DNA of 64,000 nt from Risungbinella massiliensis. Its GTDB lineage: Bacteria; Bacillota; Bacilli; Thermoactinomycetales; Thermoactinomycetaceae. Below the pieces are notes generated by a model, which searched no databases, had not been told where the DNA came from, and worked only from the letters and a program-made list of their open reading frames with translations. Made by a program: the position numbers and the translations under genes. The stretch covers positions 93,358 to 157,357 of the forward strand of contig NZ_LN812102.1 of assembly GCF_000942395.1 (NCBI RefSeq), in the 5' to 3' direction. Within the stretch, counting starts at the first letter, position 1, and each line of letters starts with the position of its first letter. Positions 1,001-14,787 of the stretch are shown here, one piece after another.

Positions 1001-1459
1001 ATGGAACCACAATGGAAAGTAGGTGAACTAGCAAAGCTAACAGGCTTAACGATTCGGACATTGCGTTATTACGATCAGATTGGTCTATTTTCACCTTCGG
1101 AATATACGGAAGCTGGACACCGCCTCTATAACCAAGCCGATCTCTCGCGGCTACAACAGATTTTATCGTTAAAAGAATTGGGGTTATCACTTGAAGAAAT
1201 AAGATCAGCGTTGGCAGAAACCTATTACGATCCGTCACGAGTCATTTCCTTGCAAATCGCTCGTCTCAAAAAGAATATTCAATTGCAACAGACTATGTTA
1301 CAAGAACTCGAACATGTTTGGGAAATGATGCAGCAAAACAGACCTTTGACGCTGGATGACTTTACCCGATTATTAGAACTGACGAAAAAGAGAAATGAGA
1401 AATATTTTATCAGCTGGGAACGCAGCTTAGATATGCTAGGTGATTATCTAACCGAATGA
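1001..1459 (+). CDS. MerR-family transcriptional regulator
   Basis: A 152-residue MerR regulator. Residues 6-30 hold the winged helix-turn-helix (VGELAKLTGLTIRTLRYYDQ), followed by the second-wing region and a coiled coil of about residues 80-115 for dimerisation. The C-terminal effector part is short and has no cysteine cluster, so a metal sensor is unlikely; a small organic ligand is more plausible. It is first in an operon with an SRPBCC protein (14 bp gap) and a drug exporter, and a 19-bp-spacer MerR promoter lies directly upstream. Confidence 0.9.
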   Translation: MEPQWKVGELAKLTGLTIRTLRYYDQIGLFSPSEYTEAGHRLYNQADLSRLQQILSLKELGLSLEEIRSALAETYYDPSRVISLQIARLKKNIQLQQTMLQELEHVWEMMQQNRPLTLDDFTRLLELTKKRNEKYFISWERSLDMLGDYLTE

Positions 1460-1472
1460 GGAGGACATTAAA

Positions 1473-1928
1473 ATGACAGAACGTTTTGTCAAACATGATA
1501 CATTTGTGATCGAACGGGAGTACAAAGCTAATTTAAAACGGGTATTTACTGCATGGTCAGATCCAGAACAGAAAGCACAGTGGTTTCCGAAAGCTGAAAA
1601 GTTTGAGTTTGTTGTTGGAGGCCGTGAATGGAATCAAGGGGGACCTTCAGGAGGTCCAACGTTTACATATGATGCTTCCTATCAAGAGATTGTCCAAGAT
1701 CAACGAATTGTCTATACATACACGATGGATATGGATCAAGTGCGTATCTCAGCTTCTATCGTAACTGTTGAATTAAAGCCAGTAAACGCAGGTACCCGGT
1801 TGATTTTTACGGAACAAGTTGCTATGTTTGATGGTCATGATCGCGTCGAACATCGCCAGCATGGAACGGAAGCGTTTTTGGACAAGTTAGAGAGTCTATT
1901 TCAAACAGGTACTCAGGTAAAAAAATGA
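1473..1928 (+). CDS. SRPBCC / AHSA1-type ligand-binding protein
   Basis: A 151-residue START-like (SRPBCC, AHSA1 subgroup) protein. The N-terminal segment ANLKRVFTAWSDPEQKAQWF is the family signature, and the Gly-rich segment near residues 49-62 and the LIFTEQ strand also fit. Such proteins hold hydrophobic ligands in a deep pocket. GAGGAGG lies 8 bases before the ATG. Its stop overlaps the start of the exporter gene (ATGA), so the two are translationally coupled. A role in binding the exported compound is inference. Confidence 0.85.
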   Translation: MTERFVKHDTFVIEREYKANLKRVFTAWSDPEQKAQWFPKAEKFEFVVGGREWNQGGPSGGPTFTYDASYQEIVQDQRIVYTYTMDMDQVRISASIVTVELKPVNAGTRLIFTEQVAMFDGHDRVEHRQHGTEAFLDKLESLFQTGTQVKK

Positions 1929-3484
1929 ATAGGATTCCAACAAAGGCAGGTACGCGAGAATGGTTGGGATTGGCGGTACTCGCCCTTCCCGCCCTGCTCA
2001 CTTCGATCGATGTCTCGGTCATGATACTTGCCCTCCCACGTATCGCGACACAATTAGGTGCCGATAGTGCTGAACAACTCTGGATTATGGATATCTACGG
2101 ATTTCTCATCGCTGGATTTTTGATTACAATGGGAACGCTAAGTGAACGAGTTGGACAGCGCAAACTATTGATTATCGGTGGAACAGTATTTGGTCTTGCT
2201 TCGTTACTGGCGGCCTTTTCACAGAATGTCGAAATGTTAATTGTGGCTCGAGCGATCTTGGGAATTTCGGGTGCTACATTGTTTCCTACAACATTTGCTT
2301 TGGTAAGTCATTTATTCCAAGATCAAAAACAACGCTCCTTTGCACTGGGACTCTATATGACCTTTTGTATGGGGGGAATGGCGTTAGGACCACTTGTTGG
2401 CGGTGCGATGCTTGAATACTTCTGGTGGGGAGCCATTTTCTTGCCTGCAGTTCCTGTCATGATCATCCTGCTAACTGTAGCTCCCTTCTTGCTTCCTGAA
2501 TTCCGTAATCCTGAAGCGAAGCAAATCGATTTATGGAGTGTGTTGTTATCGTTGGGCACTATTTTGCTTGTGATCTATGGAGTAAAGGAAATTGCAAAAG
2601 ATGGATTTCAGCTTGTTTCTATCGTTGTCATGATCATCGGAATTGTACTTGGCATTCTGTTTATCCGACGACAAAAGCAAGTCACCAATCCATTGTTGGA
2701 TTTGCGTCTATTTTCCAACTCAGTTTTTCGTGTTTCTTTAGGGGGAATGTTTAGCATCACGCTTACCGGTGCATTTATGCTATTTGTATCTCAATATTTC
2801 CAGTTTGTACAAGGTTTATCACCGCTTCAAGCTGGGTTATGGACGCTTCCGAGTGTGATCGCTTCGATGCTAGGATCATTTTTCGCACCGTTGATTGCTC
2901 GCCGGATTAGACCTGCTTATCTTATCGCCTTTGGGATGATCATTTCGATGACAGGTATGCTCTTCGTATTCCAATTAACGGTGACATCGGGCCTAGCCAT
3001 AGTTGTCATCGCGCATATCCTCTTTAATGTAGGAGCTTCGCCTTTGACGAGTCTCTCTTCTGGTCTCGTCGCCGAGTCAGTTCCGCAAGAAAAAGTCGGT
3101 TCTGCAGGTTCCATGTTACAAACAAGCGGTGAGTTGGCTTTTGCTGTAGGGATTGCAACAATCGGCAGCTTAGGTACAGCCGTTTATCGTCACCAGATCA
3201 CTGATTATCTGCCAGCTCATCTACCTCCAAAAACGGTCCAGTCTGTTCAAGAGAGCATTGCTGGTGCTGTGGAAGTTGCCAAGCGTCTTTCAAATTCTAT
3301 CGGTTCAGAGCTATTAAGTAATGCTTACCATGCTTTTATCAATGGAATGATCGCTGTCTCTCTTGTCTGTGGACTGATCTATGTGATGATTGCATTTGTT
3401 TTCTTAAAGCAAATGCGTCATATCCTTCCAATTGGAACACCGCAGGATTCAAAGGATTATCAAAAACAGTACCCAGTAACATAG
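1925..3484 (+). CDS. MFS drug exporter, 14-TM DHA2 family
   Basis: A 519-residue integral membrane transporter of the DHA2 (QacA/EmrB-like) drug:proton antiporter family. It shows about 14 hydrophobic segments. In the first helix there is the ALPALLTSIDVSVMILALP motif, and motif A reads GTLSERVGQRK after TM2. Motif C-like Gly-rich residues follow in TM5. It is the last gene of the MerR-SRPBCC-MFS operon, overlapping the previous stop by 4 bp. Function is probably proton-driven efflux of a lipophilic cation or antibiotic; the substrate is unknown. Confidence 0.92.
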   Translation: MNRIPTKAGTREWLGLAVLALPALLTSIDVSVMILALPRIATQLGADSAEQLWIMDIYGFLIAGFLITMGTLSERVGQRKLLIIGGTVFGLASLLAAFSQNVEMLIVARAILGISGATLFPTTFALVSHLFQDQKQRSFALGLYMTFCMGGMALGPLVGGAMLEYFWWGAIFLPAVPVMIILLTVAPFLLPEFRNPEAKQIDLWSVLLSLGTILLVIYGVKEIAKDGFQLVSIVVMIIGIVLGILFIRRQKQVTNPLLDLRLFSNSVFRVSLGGMFSITLTGAFMLFVSQYFQFVQGLSPLQAGLWTLPSVIASMLGSFFAPLIARRIRPAYLIAFGMIISMTGMLFVFQLTVTSGLAIVVIAHILFNVGASPLTSLSSGLVAESVPQEKVGSAGSMLQTSGELAFAVGIATIGSLGTAVYRHQITDYLPAHLPPKTVQSVQESIAGAVEVAKRLSNSIGSELLSNAYHAFINGMIAVSLVCGLIYVMIAFVFLKQMRHILPIGTPQDSKDYQKQYPVT

Positions 3485-5748: not shown

Positions 5749-7121
5749 AGGAAAACCCCTAGCTTTAGCCATGGGGATGAAAGCGAGCGTCAGACGAGGG
5801 AGGGGTGTTTTTCCCCTCTCGCAAGTCGGACCATTTTTTTAAAAATCAGTATTGCGAACATATATTCTTTTGTTAATATATCATTAGTTACTTGAGAAGC
5901 AACCAAGGAGGTGAAGTACATGCATAAGGCATATAAGTTTCGTTTGTATCCAACAAAAGAACAGGCAATTTTAATCAACAAATCCATTGGTTGTAGTCGG
6001 TTCACTTTCAATCACTTTTTAGCCAAATGGAACCAGCAATATGAGCAAACAGGGAAAGGACTCACTTACAACGCTTGTTCCATCCTCCTTACGGGACTCA
6101 AAAAAGAGCTGAAATGGCTAAAAGAAGTAGATTCTACTTCTCTGCAAAACTCATTGAAAAATCTAGCAGATGCCTTTTCTCGCTTCTTCAAAAAGCAGAA
6201 TGATCGCCCGAAATTTAAGAGTAGAAAGAATCTAGTTCAATCATATACCAGTCAATGCAACCATCCAAAGCAAGGAAAACCAACAATGGAAGTAGTAGGA
6301 AACAAAATCAAGCTACCGAAGCTTGGTTGGGTGAAATTCGCTAAATCTCGTGAAGTGAAAGGGCGGATTCTTTCTGCTGCCATTCGTCGGAATCCATCCG
6401 GTAAATACTTTGTTTCCATTCTTTGTGAACTAAATTACTGTTTCTATATTCCAGTAGACAAAGAAAAAGTGGTCGGGATCGACTTGGGATTAAAAGATTT
6501 CGCTATTCTTTCCAATGGTGAGAAAGAAAACGCACCTAAATTTTTCCGAAAATACGAAAAACGGTTAACCGAAGCTCAGCGAATCATGAGCAGACGTACC
6601 AAAGGTGGGTCCAATTGGGATAAGGCACGTATCAAAGTAGCTAAGATCCACGAAAAGATCACAAACGCTCGTCATGACTTCCTTCACAAACTGTCTACGA
6701 AGCTGATTCACGAAAACCAAGTCATCAGCATCGAAGATTTACAAGTGAAGAACATGGTCCAAAATCACAACTTAGCAAAGTCTATCATCGATGCGTCATG
6801 GTCTGAATTTGTTGCCATGCTAGAATATAAAGGGGAGTGGTTCGGGAGAACCATTGTGAAGGTTGGAAAACAGTTCCCATCCAGCCAACTTTGTTCTTGT
6901 TGTGGTTACCGAAACAAAGATGTGAAAGAACTTAAGTTAAGAGAATGGACATGTCCTGCATGTAAGGTACATCATGATCGAGACATCAACGCTGCCAAAA
7001 ACATTTTGCAAGAAGGGATGAGATTAATCGCCGTGGGGCTCACGGTTTGAGCTTGGTCAACTTCCTTGGGATACCGAGGATTATCCAAGAATCCCCTGCG
7101 TTTACGCATGGGGAGGGTCAA
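5749..7121 (+). mobile_element. TnpB-only IS200/IS605-family element (IS1341-like)
   Basis: The left end carries a hairpin (CCCCTAGCTTTAGCCATGGGG) and a second one in GAGGGAGGGGTG...CCCCTCTCGC. The right end behind tnpB folds as a GC-rich hairpin (CCCCTGCGTTTACGCATGGGG) and ends GGTCAA, as does the second copy at 24762. No tnpA transposase is present, so mobilisation would need TnpA in trans. The insertion separates the two halves of an SRAP gene. Boundaries are estimated to within about 10 bases. Confidence 0.75.
5920..7050 (+). CDS. tnpB: TnpB RNA-guided nuclease
   Basis: An apparently intact 376-residue TnpB. The N-terminus [13 protein letters not shown] is the OrfB helix-turn-helix domain. 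The split RuvC site is complete: the Asp in [12 protein letters not shown], the Glu in [11 protein letters not shown] and the Asp in [13 protein letters not shown] zinc finger with CSCCG and CPAC lies between the last two. AAGGAGG 8 bases upstream supports ATG 5920. TnpB proteins use a right-end RNA (omegaRNA) as guide, and such a region follows the gene. Confidence 0.93.
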
Positions 7122-7692: not shown

Positions 7693-7704
7693 ATGGAAAG
7701 AATC

Positions 7705-9960
7705 ATGAGTGAATTGAATCAGGATCATATCGTAATCACAGGTGCGAGAGAAAACAACCTCAAGAACGTATCCTTGCGCATTCCCAAGCGGAAGATCACG
7801 ATCTTCACGGGGGTATCTGGATCAGGTAAGTCATCGATCGTCTTCGATACGATCGCCGCAGAATCCACGCGATTGCTAAATGAGAACTTCAGTATGTTCG
7901 TGCGAAATTTCCTGCCCCGCGTTCCACAGCCGGATACAGACTCGATCGAAAATCTTAGCATGGCTGTTATTGTAGATCAGAAGCGGCTGGGCGGCGGTTC
8001 CCATTCTACAATGGGCACGATTACCGATATTTCTCCCATTCTCCGTCTTCTCTTTTCCCGAGTGGGACAGCCCTATGTTGGACCAGTGAACATGTTTTCG
8101 TTTAACGATCCGCAAGGCATGTGTCCCGAGTGCAACGGGATCGGTCGCAAGCTGGGCGTCGACATGGGCAAGGCGGTGGACATGTCAAAGTCGTTGAATG
8201 AAGGGGCTATTATGCTGCCGGACTATTCGGTGGGCGGCTGGGAGTGGAACATGATCGTGCAGTCGGGGGACTTCGATCTCGACAAGAAGCTAAGCAATTA
8301 TTCGGATGAGGAACTGGAGCAACTGCTGTACGCCAAGGCAAGGAAAGTTAAGATGGATTTCGCCGGTAAGGCAACGAATATTACAGTGGAAGGCGTTATA
8401 GAGAAGTTCACCAACAAATATATCAAGCAGGATGTGAAGATGAAGTCCGAGCGCACGCAAAAAGCGGTTGCGCCATTCATCTCTGAAGGTCCGTGCTCCA
8501 GTTGCCACGGCGCAAGACTCAGTCAAGCAGCGCTCAGCTGCAGGATTAATGGACTCAACATTGCAGAAATGTCCTCCATGGAGGTTGGTCAGCTTATCCG
8601 TGTCATTCAGGAGATAGTTGATCCCGTAGCCGCGCCGATCGTTAAGTCGCTGTCGGAGCGCTTGCGGCATCTGGTGGATATCGGACTTGACTACTTGACG
8701 TTGGACCGCGAGACGGATACATTGTCCGGTGGCGAATCGCAACGCGTTAAGATGGTGAAGCATCTGAGCGGTAGTCTGGTAGATGTTACTTACATTTTCG
8801 ATGAGCCCAGCGTTGGTCTGCACCCCCGTGATGTTCACCGGTTAAATGAATTGCTTCAGAAGCTAAGCAACAAGGGCAATACCGTGATCGTCGTCGAGCA
8901 TGATCCCGATGTGATCAAAGTGGCGGACCATATCGTAGACGTCGGGCCTCATGCCGGTAGTCGTGGCGGTACCATCGTATATGAAGGTAGCTTTCAAGGC
9001 TTGTTGGAGGCAGATACGCTGACGGGCAACCATATGAATCGGCCACTCCAGCTAAAGAACGATTGGAGACAGCCATCTGGTAAGTTATCTATCAAGGATG
9101 CCACACTGCATAACCTGCGGAACGTAAGTGTAGATATTCCAACTGGAGTGATGACAGTCGTTTCGGGTGTCGCCGGCTCGGGCAAGAGTACGCTGATTAA
9201 CGAAGTATTCCTAAGCCAGCATCCGGATGCGATCGTTATCGACCAATCGGCGGTAGGAGTGTCAACACGCTCGAATCCCGCGACCTACACGGGAATTATG
9301 GATGATGTACGAAAGGCATTTGCTTCCACGAACAAGGTCAGCCAAAGCTTGTTCAGCTTCAACTCCAAGGGGGCTTGCGAGAATTGTCAAGGGCTGGGTG
9401 TTGTGTATACAGACCTTGGATTCCTTGACAGTGTGAAGCTACCATGCGAAGTATGTGGAGGTAAACGGTTCAAGGAAGAGGTACTTGCGTATAAACTGAA
9501 CGGCAAGTCCATTGCAGAAGTGCTGGAGATGACGGTGGAGCAGGCATTGGACTTTTTTCAGCTAAAAAAGGTTGTACCTAAGCTCCAGGCGATGAGTGAT
9601 GTGGGGCTGAACTATATTACACTCGGCCAGCCCCTCAGTACGCTCTCGGGTGGGGAATGCCAGCGCATCAAGCTGGCAAGCGAGCTGCATAAGAAGGGCA
9701 GTATCTACGTGATGGACGAACCGACAACCGGCCTACATATGTCTGATATCGGTCATCTTCTGGGGATCATGAACCGGCTCGTAGATGCCGGCAATACGGT
9801 GATCGTCATCGAGCACAACCTCGATGTGATCAGCCAAGCGGATTGGATCATCGATATGGGACCAGACGGAGGCAGTAAGGGCGGCCAAGTGGTATTCGAG
9901 GGCACACCTTCGCAGATCATTGATGCGAAGCAGTCGATTACGGGAAGATACTTGAAGTAG
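7705..9960 (+). CDS. UvrA-like ABC protein, drug-resistance type (UvrA paralogue)
   Basis: A protein of about 751 residues with two ABC ATPase halves. It shows Walker A motifs GVSGSGKSS and GVAGSGKST, signatures LSGGESQRVK and LSGGECQRIK, and zinc-finger pairs CPECNG/CSSCHG and CENCQG/CEVCGG. Housekeeping UvrA has about 940 residues and a UvrB-binding insert, which is missing here. Short paralogues of this class include DrrC-like antibiotic-protection proteins. The gene is visibly GC-richer than its neighbours (a sampled 60-base line is 55% GC), suggesting transfer. The start is uncertain: ATG 7693 has AGGAG only 2 bases away, while 7705 matches the usual MSEL-like start. Confidence 0.88.
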   Translation: MSELNQDHIVITGARENNLKNVSLRIPKRKITIFTGVSGSGKSSIVFDTIAAESTRLLNENFSMFVRNFLPRVPQPDTDSIENLSMAVIVDQKRLGGGSHSTMGTITDISPILRLLFSRVGQPYVGPVNMFSFNDPQGMCPECNGIGRKLGVDMGKAVDMSKSLNEGAIMLPDYSVGGWEWNMIVQSGDFDLDKKLSNYSDEELEQLLYAKARKVKMDFAGKATNITVEGVIEKFTNKYIKQDVKMKSERTQKAVAPFISEGPCSSCHGARLSQAALSCRINGLNIAEMSSMEVGQLIRVIQEIVDPVAAPIVKSLSERLRHLVDIGLDYLTLDRETDTLSGGESQRVKMVKHLSGSLVDVTYIFDEPSVGLHPRDVHRLNELLQKLSNKGNTVIVVEHDPDVIKVADHIVDVGPHAGSRGGTIVYEGSFQGLLEADTLTGNHMNRPLQLKNDWRQPSGKLSIKDATLHNLRNVSVDIPTGVMTVVSGVAGSGKSTLINEVFLSQHPDAIVIDQSAVGVSTRSNPATYTGIMDDVRKAFASTNKVSQSLFSFNSKGACENCQGLGVVYTDLGFLDSVKLPCEVCGGKRFKEEVLAYKLNGKSIAEVLEMTVEQALDFFQLKKVVPKLQAMSDVGLNYITLGQPLSTLSGGECQRIKLASELHKKGSIYVMDEPTTGLHMSDIGHLLGIMNRLVDAGNTVIVIEHNLDVISQADWIIDMGPDGGSKGGQVVFEGTPSQIIDAKQSITGRYLK

Positions 9961-10841: not shown

Positions 10842-11092
10842 TGCCAATTAGCTCCTCTATATAGACAAATATTTTTAGTCCTTGTTTCTCTTAAGCTACT
10901 GCATGATCCGAACGGAACGGTAAGCTCATCGAAAAGAAAGACACCAGTTTCTGGAGCGCTTTTTGATACGTATCAAACAACATATAATACGTTAAACCAA
11001 GTCGCACAACTAGATTTACTGGTGAGTGGACAAGTCACATACTTTAATATTCATGGCAATCATTTACAACAAGTATACTCAAAGATCCATGG

Positions 11093-11800
11093 TTAACGAT
11101 TGGTGTCTGTTAATCGAATCAATTTGTATAAATAGTAGAGGCCTCTCATCTGAGACTTGTTGGTATTATTTAAGTAAATTAAGATTTTTTCTGCGAGCTT
11201 CATCACATGCTCTATATTATGATCATCTATCGAAGCAATCGATTTTTTTAGACTCACTGTGTCCTTGGAATATACAGAGCTTTGAAGCGCCTGAATCAAC
11301 CTAATTTTAAACAAATGTGCTTCGCTATATTGACGGTAATCGTTTGCAGGGTCCCGTTCTGCAGTAATTAGGCTTACTTTCTCCCAATAGCGGATTGCCG
11401 ATTTAGGCACACCTGTCCGTAGAGAGGTCTCATTGATGTTGAAGCGTTTCGTTAGGTCGTGAGCTTGACTTCCATCAGCGTATACTTCCAACTCCTTAAT
11501 TAATTTCTCCACCCTCGCTTTTTCCCGATACAAAGAAACTTCCCTCTCCTTAACGATCCAAAGAGCTTTATCCAACTCTCCTCTCTGGAGACAATGTAGC
11601 ACTTCGGTTGTCATTTCCATCCCAAACGCAGGAGCCATTGCTTGAATACATGCCAAATAGGTCTCATGTTGCTCTGTATAAATGCGGTAGCCATTTGCCG
11701 ATCGATCTGCAGGAGGAATCAACCCCTTTGCTTCATAGTTTCTTATCGTGCTAGCGCTCATCTTGAATTTCTCTGACATTTTTTTTGGCCGTAAGACCAT
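11093..11800 (-). CDS. MerR-family regulator with two HTH domains in tandem
   Basis: A 235-residue protein with two MerR-like winged HTH units in one chain: the first at about residues 8-35 (MSASTIRNYEAKGLIPP), the second at about 120-150 (INETSLRTGVPKSAIRYWEK). Helical linkers follow each unit. A single chain could therefore act as a pseudo-dimer. It is transcribed divergently from the streptogramin-resistance operon, about 155 bp away. The gap has an AACATT...AATGTT dyad at 11829-11852 overlapping a TATAAT-like -10 for this gene. Control of the vat-vgb operon is a reasonable inference. Confidence 0.85.
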   Translation of the reverse strand: MVLRPKKMSEKFKMSASTIRNYEAKGLIPPADRSANGYRIYTEQHETYLACIQAMAPAFGMEMTTEVLHCLQRGELDKALWIVKEREVSLYREKARVEKLIKELEVYADGSQAHDLTKRFNINETSLRTGVPKSAIRYWEKVSLITAERDPANDYRQYSEAHLFKIRLIQALQSSVYSKDTVSLKKSIASIDDHNIEHVMKLAEKILIYLNNTNKSQMRGLYYLYKLIRLTDTNR

Positions 11801-11955
11801 ACTATCTCTCCTCGAAGAAAATACATCAAAACATTAAAACCATTATAATGTTTTTTCTGAGTTTCTCGTTTTTCCCTTCAATATTTTCCTGAAACCTTCC
11901 AATTAGCTTACATGTTATACAATGAATTTAGAACTAATCAAGGAGGCTTATTATT

Positions 11956-12444
11956 TTGGAAAAACACCCCCTTGTCTTCCGACAGGATATGACGATCGAA
12001 GAAATTGGCAAAGAAGGTAACCGGTATATTACATCAGTATGGAAGTCTTTGCATGATTCAATGCATGAGCAATTAACGGCCGCTTTTCGTGAAATCGAGG
12101 ATGCTGCTTACGGTCTGTATTTGGATCAGTTGATGCCGAAACTATTTGATTACTTAGCGGACGTTGGGTTCGAAGCAATGGAACCCCTTGAGGAAAATGA
12201 TTTTGTAATTGGAAAATGCTTAATTTTCCGAAACTCGCTTGAAAAATGGGGATCCGAAGAGAACAGATCAAGAATATTTTGGAACGTTATTCGTCATAAG
12301 CATGGCCAGCCTGTTGGAACATTATTGACAGAAATTCCTCACTCTCATTTGAAGTTTGATATCCCCTCGGCACCGGTCCTATATACATTAAGGGAGACCG
12401 TCAAGGAGCAGATCGTACAAGGAATTCGAAAAATTAAGGAATAG
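11956..12444 (+). CDS. Hypothetical protein, first gene of the vat-vgb operon
   Basis: A 162-residue soluble protein not assigned to a family. No signal peptide, membrane segment or cysteine motif is visible. It is helical in its first half (REIEDAAYGLYLDQLMPKLF) with a strand-rich centre. AAGGAGG at 11940-11946 fixes the start at TTG 11956. It precedes vat by 13 bases and lies divergent from the tandem MerR gene, so it is probably co-regulated. A role in resistance cannot be claimed. Confidence 0.7.
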   Translation: MEKHPLVFRQDMTIEEIGKEGNRYITSVWKSLHDSMHEQLTAAFREIEDAAYGLYLDQLMPKLFDYLADVGFEAMEPLEENDFVIGKCLIFRNSLEKWGSEENRSRIFWNVIRHKHGQPVGTLLTEIPHSHLKFDIPSAPVLYTLRETVKEQIVQGIRKIKE

Positions 12445-12457
12445 AGAGGAGCAGATC

Positions 12458-13093
12458 ATGATAGGTCCTGACCCAAATGACAAGTATCCTATACCTGGAA
12501 ACTCCAATTTACAGTTTATTAAAAATATGATTACAAAGCCGAACATTATTGTTGGAGATTACTCCTATTACGATGCATTAAATGGAGAATCGTTCGAAGA
12601 TCAAGTATTGTACCATTATGAGATCATTGGAACAAAATTGATTATCGGCAAGTTTTGTTCCATCGCTCCCGAAGTCAGATTTCTCATGGATGGCGGAAAT
12701 CATAGGATGGACGGGTCAACCTTTCCGTTCAACATTTTCGGCAACGGTTGGGAAGTACACACACCATCTTTGAAAGATTTGCCGATCAAGGGGGATTCGA
12801 TCGTCGGTAATGATGTCTGGATTGGCAGACGTGCGACCATCATGCCCGGTGTACGGATTGGTGATGGAGCAATCATAGGCGCTGAAGCAGTAGTCGTAAA
12901 AGATGTTGAACCGTATACGATCGTCGGTGGGAATCCTGCGAGGGAAATACAAAAACGCTTTTCACCAGAAATCATCCAAGAGTTGCTGGACATCCAATGG
13001 TGGGATGCCGAAATTGAGCTTATTAATTTGTATATCGGTGCCATTGTCAGCGGAGACATAAATACGCTGAGAAAGATGAAACAAAATCCCTAA
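12458..13093 (+). CDS. vat: Streptogramin A O-acetyltransferase (Vat family)
   Basis: A 211-residue xenobiotic acetyltransferase with a left-handed beta-helix made of hexapeptide repeats ([47 protein letters not shown]). It transfers acetyl from acetyl-CoA to the hydroxyl of group A streptogramins. The catalytic His is present at residue 82 (GGNHRMDG), at the same number as in VatD. GGAGCAG precedes ATG 12458. It is flanked by vgb 23 bases downstream, which would deal with group B streptogramins. Confidence 0.92.
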
Positions 13094-13116
13094 TACAAAT
13101 CGGAGAGGGCCATGGT

Positions 13117-14010
13117 ATGAAGATCAGTATTCAAGAATACGCGGTACCTAGAGCAGAGTCAGGACCCTATGGAATTACAGCTGGGAAAGACGGTGCGATG
13201 TGGTTTACGGAACAAAAAGGAAACCGAATCGGGCGAATCGATATGAATGGTGAAGTCTTGTCTTATTCCATCCCAACCCCCAATGCAGGGGTTATGTCTA
13301 TCATTTCGGACCAGGAAGGCTTCTTATGGTTCACCGAATATCACGCCAATAAGATTGCGAGAATGTCGATGGACGGTCTATGCACAGAATACGAGCTTCC
13401 GACAGAAAACGCTTCGCCTTTTGGCATTACAGAGGGAGCGGACGGCGCAATATGGTTTACTGAAATGAGTAGCGGGAAGATCGGCAGGATAAGCAAATCA
13501 GGGGAGATCGCGGAGTTTGAGCTACCTAATCCGAAGTCGTTTCCTTCTTTTATTACTCAAGGTTCAGATGATGCATTATGGTTTACGCTCAATCAAAACA
13601 ATTCAATTGGAAGAATCACCATAAGAGGAGAAATACAGGAATACCCCATTCCGACTCCCAATTCCGGGCCGGTCGGTATTACAAGCGGACCCGATGGTGC
13701 CTTGTGGTTTGTTCAAATTCTAGGGAATAAGATCGGAAGAATGACAATCTTCGGTGAGGTTTGTGAATTTGTGATTCCAACGCCGAACGCTAGACCTCAT
13801 GCCATTGTTAGCGGAACTCATGATGATCTATGGTTCACGGAATGGGGTGGCAACCGAATCGGAAGAATTTCAACACAAGGCGAAATGTTGGAATATGAAA
13901 TCCCAACCCAGAATGCAGAGCCTCATGGTATCGCAGTTAGCCTGAGTGGTGACATTTGGTTCGTTGAAGAGTGTGATCAAGTTGGACGACTCGAATTGAA
14001 CGATGCATGA
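13117..14010 (+). CDS. vgb: Streptogramin B (virginiamycin B) lyase
   Basis: A 297-residue seven-bladed beta-propeller, with repeats such as [10 protein letters not shown] and [10 protein letters not shown]. Vgb linearises type B streptogramins by an elimination at the ester bond and needs Mg2+. The residues known to be catalytic in staphylococcal Vgb occur at identical numbers: His228 (RPHAI), Glu268 and His270 (AEPHG) and Glu284 (FVEEC). GGAGAGG lies 11 bases before the ATG. Together with vat this gives resistance to both synergistic components. Confidence 0.94.
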
Positions 14011-14051
14011 TTCTGATTTATAACCTTTATTTTAGTGGGAGATGAGGGAGT

Positions 14052-14486
14052 TTGGCGCCATTTATAGCCCTTGTGGCATCCTTTTTATTGTTTCGAACAA
14101 TGGGCTTTCTCGGTTTGCCTATTTTTGATAATTGGCATTCATCATTAAAAGGGGCAGTGGTTGTCATGCTGCTGCTTACCGCTTCCGCTCATTGGGGGAA
14201 GAATCGTTCGGACCTAATCCGAATGGTTCCAAGACGCGACTGGATCGTGACGGCAACTGGACTTTTGGAAATCGCGGGTGCAATTGGCATTATGATTCCT
14301 GCTACTTCTTACACTGCTTGCGTGTGCTTAGTTGTGCTACTTATCGCCATGTTTCCAGCAAATGTCTATGCAGCTAAGCAGAAATTAACAATTGGGGGTA
14401 GGCCAGTGCCGAAGCTGTTTGTCCGCAGTTTGCTGCAGGTCGTATTTATAGCGGCGATCATATTCTCATTACCAATGTTCGGATAA
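14052..14486 (+). CDS. DoxX-like membrane protein
   Basis: A 144-residue protein with four hydrophobic segments, of the DoxX/DUF4870-like small membrane group. Features include HWGKNRSDLIRMVPRRDW between TM2 and TM3 and GLLEIAGAIGIMIP in TM3, typical of DoxX proteins. TTG 14052 is preceded by GAGGGAG. It is 41 bases behind vgb and is probably the last gene of that operon. Function is unknown; relatives are linked to redox or membrane stress. Confidence 0.75.
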   Translation: MAPFIALVASFLLFRTMGFLGLPIFDNWHSSLKGAVVVMLLLTASAHWGKNRSDLIRMVPRRDWIVTATGLLEIAGAIGIMIPATSYTACVCLVVLLIAMFPANVYAAKQKLTIGGRPVPKLFVRSLLQVVFIAAIIFSLPMFG

Positions 14487-14787
14487 TGAAATTAACAACA
14501 GCGGGAGAGCGTTTCACTGGCAGTGTAGAGGTCAGCTGTTCGGTCCCGTTCTACTCCACCAAAAATGATTACGTCTATGTAGTATTACGGTCATACTAAG
14601 AAGTCAAAAGACCTTCTGGTGAACTCTAAACAGTTCATTGGGAACTCTTTTTTTCGTGTTGATTGAGACATTGCAAATCGCTCGTATGTTAACTATTTTT
14701 ATCTACTGTTTACTCATTTTCTGTCTTATTTCTAATTATTTAAACTCTATAATTGATTCATAAATAAAAGAAAAAGGTAGGCAAATT
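14487..14787. other. Intergenic stretch without recognised gene
   Basis: It holds a short GAACT...AGTTC hairpin near 14625-14640 followed by a run of seven T (14648-14654), a possible weak terminator for the vgb operon. A TTGATTCATAAATAAA region precedes the next gene. Nothing else is seen. Confidence 0.5.

Follow-up and report, generated by a model that had tools for sequence, protein, structure and literature searches.

VatI and VgbC of the cave isolate Paenibacillus sp. LC231 were purified in 2016 and, according to the main text of that report, act on flopristin and linopristin; with vatI in Escherichia coli the flopristin minimum inhibitory concentration was 256 ug/ml, against 16 ug/ml for the empty vector (PMC5155152). 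The same main text describes vat neighbours as not conserved, with four contexts in six strains, and the words 'MerR' and 'operon' do not occur in it. Adjoining streptogramin A and B genes are also carried by plasmids, as vgb(A)-vat(A) on the Enterococcus faecalis plasmid LR961926 and as vgb-vat on Priestia plasmids. The regulation of chromosomal vat and vgb genes seems to have been little studied in the open-access part of PubMed Central (PMC), PMC9332259 being the one paper listed. On the side of control, the closest relatives are the regulators of the TioE family, named after the thiocoraline cluster, which have two MerR helix-turn-helix (HTH) motifs per chain, no effector domain and resistance-type neighbours.

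Here we analysed a stretch of 64,000 nucleotides from Risungbinella massiliensis (assembly GCF_000942395.1, contig NZ_LN812102.1, positions 93,358-157,357 of the forward strand), called the window below and used for all coordinates. Five genes occupy its positions 11093-14486: a MerR-type regulator on the minus strand, divergent from a plus-strand run DUF6022-vat-vgb-doxX. We consider it probable that these genes form a self-contained Vat/Vgb-type streptogramin resistance operon under a TioE-like tandem-HTH MerR regulator. Since VatI and VgbC had already been assayed and vgb-vat pairs are found on plasmids, both the enzymes and their pairing were already known; what is new relative to the known enzymes is the regulator family together with a 31-bp element before DUF6022, so that the control is less ordinary than the enzymes. 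An initial annotation, made from the sequence alone, had delimited the five genes, and its coordinates, strands and lengths were all reproduced when checked on the sequence. It had also placed vat and vgb 23 bp apart, in one run with an unknown first gene and a DoxX-like protein. This layout was borne out, with gaps of 13 bp (DUF6022-vat), 23 bp (vat-vgb) and 41 bp (vgb-doxX), and the four genes would be read as a single transcript. The first gene could be identified as DUF6022 (Pfam PF19486, 187.7 bits), and the DoxX-like label corresponds to a weak match, below the cut-off (DoxX_2, 22.4 bits against 26.3).

Predicted enzymes and the divergent tandem-HTH regulator

The Vat protein passed the NCBIfam models Vat(I) (449.8 bits, cut-off 415) and Vat_ABCDEFH (334.8 bits, cut-off 300), and its nearest solved relatives were virginiamycin A acetyltransferases, 4myo ranking first (E 3.5e-90) and 1khr being also present. 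His82, which we take to be the catalytic residue, faces the His of NHRMDG in 4myo in an ungapped alignment. Vgb matched Pfam Vgb_lyase PF24684 over residues 4-292 (445.4 bits, cut-off 50) and had the solved relatives 2qc5 (E 7.7e-111) and 2z2n (6.7e-110); its NCBIfam allele scores, 369.2 for Vgb(A) and 367.1 for Vgb(B), lay below the cut-off of 600, which leaves it outside both alleles. His228, Glu268, His270 and Glu284, presumably the key residues by Vgb(A) numbering, are all found at these numbers in the window protein, just as the initial annotation had listed them beside His82. The first three also face the same residues of Vgb(A) in 2z2n. A one-residue gap in that alignment sets Glu284 of Vgb(A) against Glu285 of the window protein and Glu284 of the latter against a Met, so that the listed numbers hold and the equivalent of the fourth residue is Glu285. 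Because the local stretch reads WFVEECD, a Glu is retained at the aligned place, which is occupied by a Lys in the Vgb(B) chain 2qc5. Sequence tests and PDB relatives thus support the identity of both proteins as predicted enzymes of known kinds. Vat would acetylate streptogramin A, Vgb would linearise streptogramin B by elimination, and both synergistic components would thereby be lost.

These enzymes are of the same kinds as VatI and VgbC of LC231, and they differ in setting, the varied contexts described in the main text on LC231-type vat genes (PMC5155152) contrasting with the regulator-linked run found here. In the E. faecalis and Priestia plasmid pairs the A and B genes adjoin as in the window, in the order vgb then vat instead of vat then vgb; the window proteins are 54.8% (Vgb) and 64.4% (Vat) identical to the E. 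faecalis copies. The plasmid vgb-vat records gave no tandem-MerR match at E 1e-15 (DUF6022 was not sought there), and none of 40 matching plasmid records covered 80% of positions 11000-14600.

As judged from Pfam and an AlphaFold2 model, the divergent regulator is a TioE-like tandem MerR with two MerR units and no further domain, in agreement with the two HTH units per chain of the initial annotation. Pfam MerR matched it in two stretches (81.4 bits; MerR_1 best at 121-180), and the model (predicted local distance difference test, pLDDT, 90.0; predicted template modelling score, pTM, 0.82) contains winged HTHs at about 5-59 and 122-170, followed by long helices at 76-108 and 196-232, one set per half. 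Over 42 residues, the first HTH shares 38% identity with the second. By hhalign, residues 2-180 of 235, which include both HTHs, aligned with a Kitasatospora plasmid protein (99.8%, E 3.9e-29) that is annotated 'TioE family transcriptional regulator' and has itself two MerR units. Foldseek placed CueR on top, as the sole row at E 0.001 or better (E 9.2e-4), with about half of the model matched, and VIA-align was led by CadR, NmlR and CueR, with Z of 9.1-9.8 over 107-131 residues, values that long helices can reach by chance. Half of the model therefore resembles a protomer of CueR, CadR, NmlR, MtaN, BmrR or TipA, from all of which the chain differs by its two HTH-plus-helix units and by having no C-terminal sensor domain. 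No solved chain matched the tandem as a whole among the Foldseek and VIA-align matches listed, and the only PADLOC match was mad1. The chain likely acts as a single-chain pseudo-dimer at its site; if it does bind there, it would offer a simple system for the action of MerR proteins on promoters without an obligate homodimer.

The TioE-family relatives share this architecture and the resistance-type neighbours, and differ from the window regulator in phylum, in sequence (29.8% identity over residues 3-177) and in the absence of the Bacilli element, which was found in none of the nine plasmid-collection loci fetched out of ten regulator matches (H8 was left out). In five of these nine (L209, the Kitasatospora locus, and L213, L216, L217 and L218) an actinobacterial TioE-like gene and an erythromycin esterase gene are divergently oriented, and 58 bp separate them in each of the three loci that are annotated. 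No paper concerning the tandem-MerR/TioE family was found in open-access PMC by title and abstract start or by listing.

A conserved 31-bp element upstream of DUF6022

Relatives of the regulator were sought with its alignment: within the order, 12 of 42 genomes had one (E 1e-30), and within the class, 49 of 398 sampled genomes did (E 1e-40). Sixty-two tandem-MerR loci were examined, the window included; the regulators of L132, L134 and L178, DUF6022 of L008 and vat of L177 were labelled by tblastn. The partner of the regulator is DUF6022 in 18 loci, an UvrA-like gene in 13 and a member of one cluster of similar proteins in another 13 (two members were scanned, both DUF5701). The remaining 18 include Hen1-Pnkp RNA repair genes (three loci, one scanned), MFS genes (two, one scanned) and a cluster without Pfam match (seven, one scanned), besides a glyoxalase (L138), two glyoxalase-like genes below the cut-off and so labelled by eye (L196 and L198; 16.7 and 16.0 against 20.6) and a GNAT-like gene, also below the cut-off (L189). 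The three Hen1-Pnkp loci (L191-L193) have the tandem MerR divergent to Hen1 and Pnkp, and the element was not found in them; no paper relating Hen1-Pnkp to a MerR protein was found in open-access PMC.

When the gap between regulator and DUF6022 was aligned in 17 loci, a single block, the 31-bp element, was kept in all 17. The eighteenth locus, L199, whose regulator and DUF6022 were each matched in two frames, possibly frameshifts, was omitted; it carries the element as well (matrix score 37.3). A matrix built from the 17 DUF6022-type loci was then run on whole loci with a threshold of 15, which was reached in 28 of 45 held-out tandem-MerR loci. None of 73 Vat loci lacking the regulator reached it, the highest score there being 13.3. 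Over the same 45 loci, 20 column-shuffled matrices gave 0-1 matches and the reversed matrix gave 1. Broken down by partner, the element was present in 18/18 DUF6022 loci (17 of them training loci), 11/13 UvrA-like loci, 13/13 DUF5701 loci and 3/18 others. Within the window, the only site scoring 10 or more is the one at 11893. The whole genome holds one exact site and another with two mismatches; the latter (G000:C6:1973092-1973122, L208), about 1 kb from a hexapeptide acetyltransferase match (L003), is probably there by chance.

We also searched 32 chosen genomes, 22 with a tandem MerR and 10 of the same family without one, for a looser pattern in which one mismatch at most was allowed. Matches occurred in 19 of the 22 and in none of the 10, the reversed pattern matching once in 32 genomes, and 9 of the 12 positive genomes without training sites were among those matched. 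The pattern misses G015, G024 and G026, and the matrix gives 11.8 in L134 (G024) and 20.5 in L135 (G026). The element follows the target gene and not the regulator gene, because in L132 it precedes an UvrA-like gene with the regulator tail to tail behind that gene, and in G014 the regulator (L137) has no element nearby and a DUF6022 gene on another contig has one (L108, L247). In G012 and G014 the gene that follows the element, at a distance of 43 bp, is a glyoxalase gene (Pfam 39.2 and 36.2 bits against a cut-off of 20.6) of the family that adjoins the regulator in L138, and in G021 the element lies 50 bp before a frame without Pfam match that resembles the start of the GNAT-like gene of L189. 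The looser pattern has one further match in G014 and one in G062.

In the window, 32 bp separate the element from the DUF6022 start. Inversion is confined to the outer bases of the element, AACnTT on one side and AAnGTT on the other (five pairs at 74-100%), an arrangement that could be read by two diverged HTHs. Operators of MerR-type activators lie between -35 and -10 in a spacer of 19-20 bp. We propose that the regulator chain binds the element, which would overlap the promoter of the DUF6022-vat-vgb-doxX run, and that under drug stress it activates this promoter in the manner of MerR proteins, activation being here assumed in preference to repression. Attenuation or riboswitch control was considered and set aside as unlikely, because the leader is short, about 25-30 nucleotides if the assumed -10 is right, and Rfam gave nothing in 10900-14700 at E values up to 1. 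The initial annotation had concluded that both streptogramin components would be inactivated under one control. Its observation is thus confirmed and its interpretation supported in part: the identity of enzymes and regulator and, by comparison, the control region (element, short leader, no Rfam match) speak for it, and the regulator family has turned out not to be specific to streptogramins, with enzymes and pairing already known.

Partners of the regulator and alternative readings

Vat genes were collected independently of the regulator. A Vat scan of genome contigs gave at least 577 confirmed stretches, of which the best 80, from several phyla, were kept as loci. A tandem-MerR relative stands beside Vat in seven of these 80, and in two (L011 and L015) the window order is repeated in full. 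The order is DUF6022-vgb-vat-doxX in L020 and L022, vat and doxX are kept with a remnant of vgb in L008 and L019, and L009 has vat without vgb or doxX. Pairs of vat and vgb without a tandem MerR in the DNA covered include L005-L007, L013, L017, L018, L021 and L023-L029, none of which has a DoxX-like gene, some of these loci being short on one side. Among the 18 DUF6022-type loci, 12 have vat and/or vgb, whole or partial; seven of the 18 had been found through Vat and the window was chosen for Vat; the remaining ten have an intact vat or vgb in L142, L168 and L177, an internally deleted vat in L170 and neither gene in six.

Several observations weigh against a streptogramin-specific operon switched on through the element. 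The regulator family is not tied to streptogramins, as its members adjoin UvrA-like, DUF5701, Hen1-Pnkp, MFS and glyoxalase genes and as six of the 18 DUF6022-type loci (L105, L167, L171, L186, L187 and L199) have neither vat nor vgb, so that the signal need not be a streptogramin; neither Pfam nor the model reveals a separate drug-binding or sensor domain in the chain. As to the element, 17 of the 45 held-out loci stayed below the threshold, including 3/3 Hen1-Pnkp and 9/9 loci with MFS or the unassigned cluster (c13), the latter two groups having a related but different string, itself sub-threshold, at the same place. No convincing -35 is seen and the promoter scan calls no promoter at the element. 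No centre gives a significant dyad (0.44 here, best 0.48, column-permuted 95% level 0.52), for which reason a palindromic operator was rejected. The genome-wide pattern had been loosened after earlier matches were known, 10 of its 22 positive genomes had provided training sites, and of the 14 same-family genomes lacking the regulator, 10 were included. Finally, L106, L107 and L111-L114 have DUF6022 without the element in genomes that encode the regulator elsewhere, and this lowered our confidence in the proposed operon slightly, to the level of probable.

The most serious alternative, to which we give a little less than even credence, is that what the regulator senses is a general signal of translation or cell stress, that its true partner is DUF6022 and that vat, vgb and doxX are passengers, streptogramins not being the inducer. 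A regulator tree of 52 of the 62 loci, in which near-copies aid clustering and the root is weak, required 11 partner changes against 31.0 in shuffles (minimum possible 7), so that partners seem mostly inherited with some switching. DUF6022 is kept in all 15 rows of the two firmly supported clades to which most vat/vgb loci belong: in 9/9 of the window's clade (100/100), cut short in L142, and in 6/6 of the Bacillus-type clade (100/97). The streptogramin genes are less constant, being absent from L167, L171, L186 and L187 and reduced to remnants of vgb in L008 and L019 and of vat in L170, and in a tree of 39 of the Vat loci the regulator-linked Vat genes do not form one clade (five changes, at least two forced by starred branches). 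Against passengers stands the recurrence of vat and/or vgb in both clades, in 7/9 members of the first, with vat in 4/6 of the second (one of these deleted). Of the DUF6022-type loci, moreover, 10/12 that have vat or vgb also have the DoxX-like gene, against 0/6 that have neither, which suggests a functional linkage. L142, which belongs to the same family as the window, shows the opposite loss: vat is missing and DUF6022 is matched over its first 40 residues only, with Vgb (88% identical) and the regulator (92%) kept. We retain the resistance operon as the better explanation, in which DUF6022, commonly the first partner of regulators of this subgroup, would presumably take part in the same response; the DoxX-like membrane protein travels with vat and vgb.

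That the element is merely a core promoter and not the regulator's site is suggested by the -10-like TAnnAT inside it, at promoter distance. We find this unlikely, as the conservation extends far beyond a -10, unrelated genes have the element too, and no copy is present in any of the same-family genomes searched that lack a tandem MerR (10/10); of the 12 DUF6022 loci with no such regulator next to them, 11 lack the element, the exception being L108. Least probable of all is that Vat and Vgb act mainly on other substrates, as general xenobiotic enzymes, and confer streptogramin resistance only incidentally, an idea in keeping with the wide spread of Vat relatives over several phyla and at odds with a Vat that passes the curated Vat(I) model and adjoins Vgb as in the plasmid vgb(A)-vat(A) pair.

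A wider proposition, on which we are evenly divided, is that the TioE-like tandem MerRs of Bacilli form a family of single-chain regulators, many of them sharing one slightly asymmetric promoter element whose unlike halves would be read by their unlike HTHs, and that regulator and element make up a plug-in controller repeatedly attached, near or far, to detoxification genes (vat-vgb, UvrA-like, glyoxalase, DUF5701). The UvrA-like partner has a parallel in the thiocoraline cluster, whose TioU is described as UvrA-like (PMC4052310, PMC10192343). With a regulator family and an element in hand, the control becomes testable, streptogramin resistance being suggested as one of several cargoes. An element that tracks one regulator family predicts targets genome by genome, several of which look like resistance or repair genes, and if binding is true, scans for the element could reveal resistance genes that have so far gone unrecognised, for instance DUF6022 and DUF5701.

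Coordinates and neighbouring genes

Table 1. Features of the locus in window coordinates.
Feature	Position	Strand	Basis
Tandem-HTH MerR (TioE-like) regulator, 235 amino acids	11093..11800	-	Pfam, AlphaFold2 model, hhalign
Partly conserved TTATAA towards the regulator, a possible -10 for the MerR gene	11843..11848	-	Alignment
Conserved 31-bp element AACCTTCCAATTAGCTTACATGTTATACAAT, putative tandem-MerR site overlapping the promoter	11893..11923	+	Alignment, matrix scans, genome pattern
Likely -10 hexamer TACAAT inside the element	11918..11923	+	Sequence; TAnnAT conserved
DUF6022 protein, 162 amino acids, TTG start after AAGGAGG	11956..12444	+	Pfam PF19486, alignment of relatives, model
vat, predicted streptogramin A O-acetyltransferase (Vat(I) model), 211 amino acids	12458..13093	+	NCBIfam, PDB relatives, His82
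vgb, predicted streptogramin B lyase (virginiamycin B lyase family), 297 amino acids	13117..14010	+	Pfam, PDB relatives, active-site residues
DoxX-like membrane protein, 144 amino acids, final gene of the run	14052..14486	+	Weak Pfam DoxX_2; relatives in 9 other tandem-MerR loci
Candidate intrinsic terminator 3' of the run	14614..14643	+	Terminator scan; weak (2 found against 3.2 expected in shuffles)

The DUF6022 protein gave a model of pLDDT 79.4 and pTM 0.79, for which the best Foldseek match had an E of 2.1e-2, short of the 0.001 threshold, and the VIA-align Z never rose above 3.8; NTF2-like chains were among these weak rows, from which no function follows. No paper on DUF6022 was found in open-access PMC.

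A short UvrA-like protein of 755 amino acids is encoded at 7693-9960 on the plus strand of the window, with a length near those given for DrrC (764) and AcmrC (756) in PMC10192343. It was dropped as a target of the regulator because its gene is not divergent to the regulator gene, no element precedes it and the sole window element scoring 10 or more lies at 11893. Elsewhere, the UvrA-like gene of L133 (5728-8275) is split into two overlapping frames, possibly by a frameshift. About 4 kb from the operon, at 5911-7050 on the plus strand, a frame of 379 amino acids resembles a TnpB/OrfB transposase by eye, and at 1001-3484 a MerR-type gene, an SRPBCC-like frame and an MFS-like frame, identified by reading only, run in the same direction.

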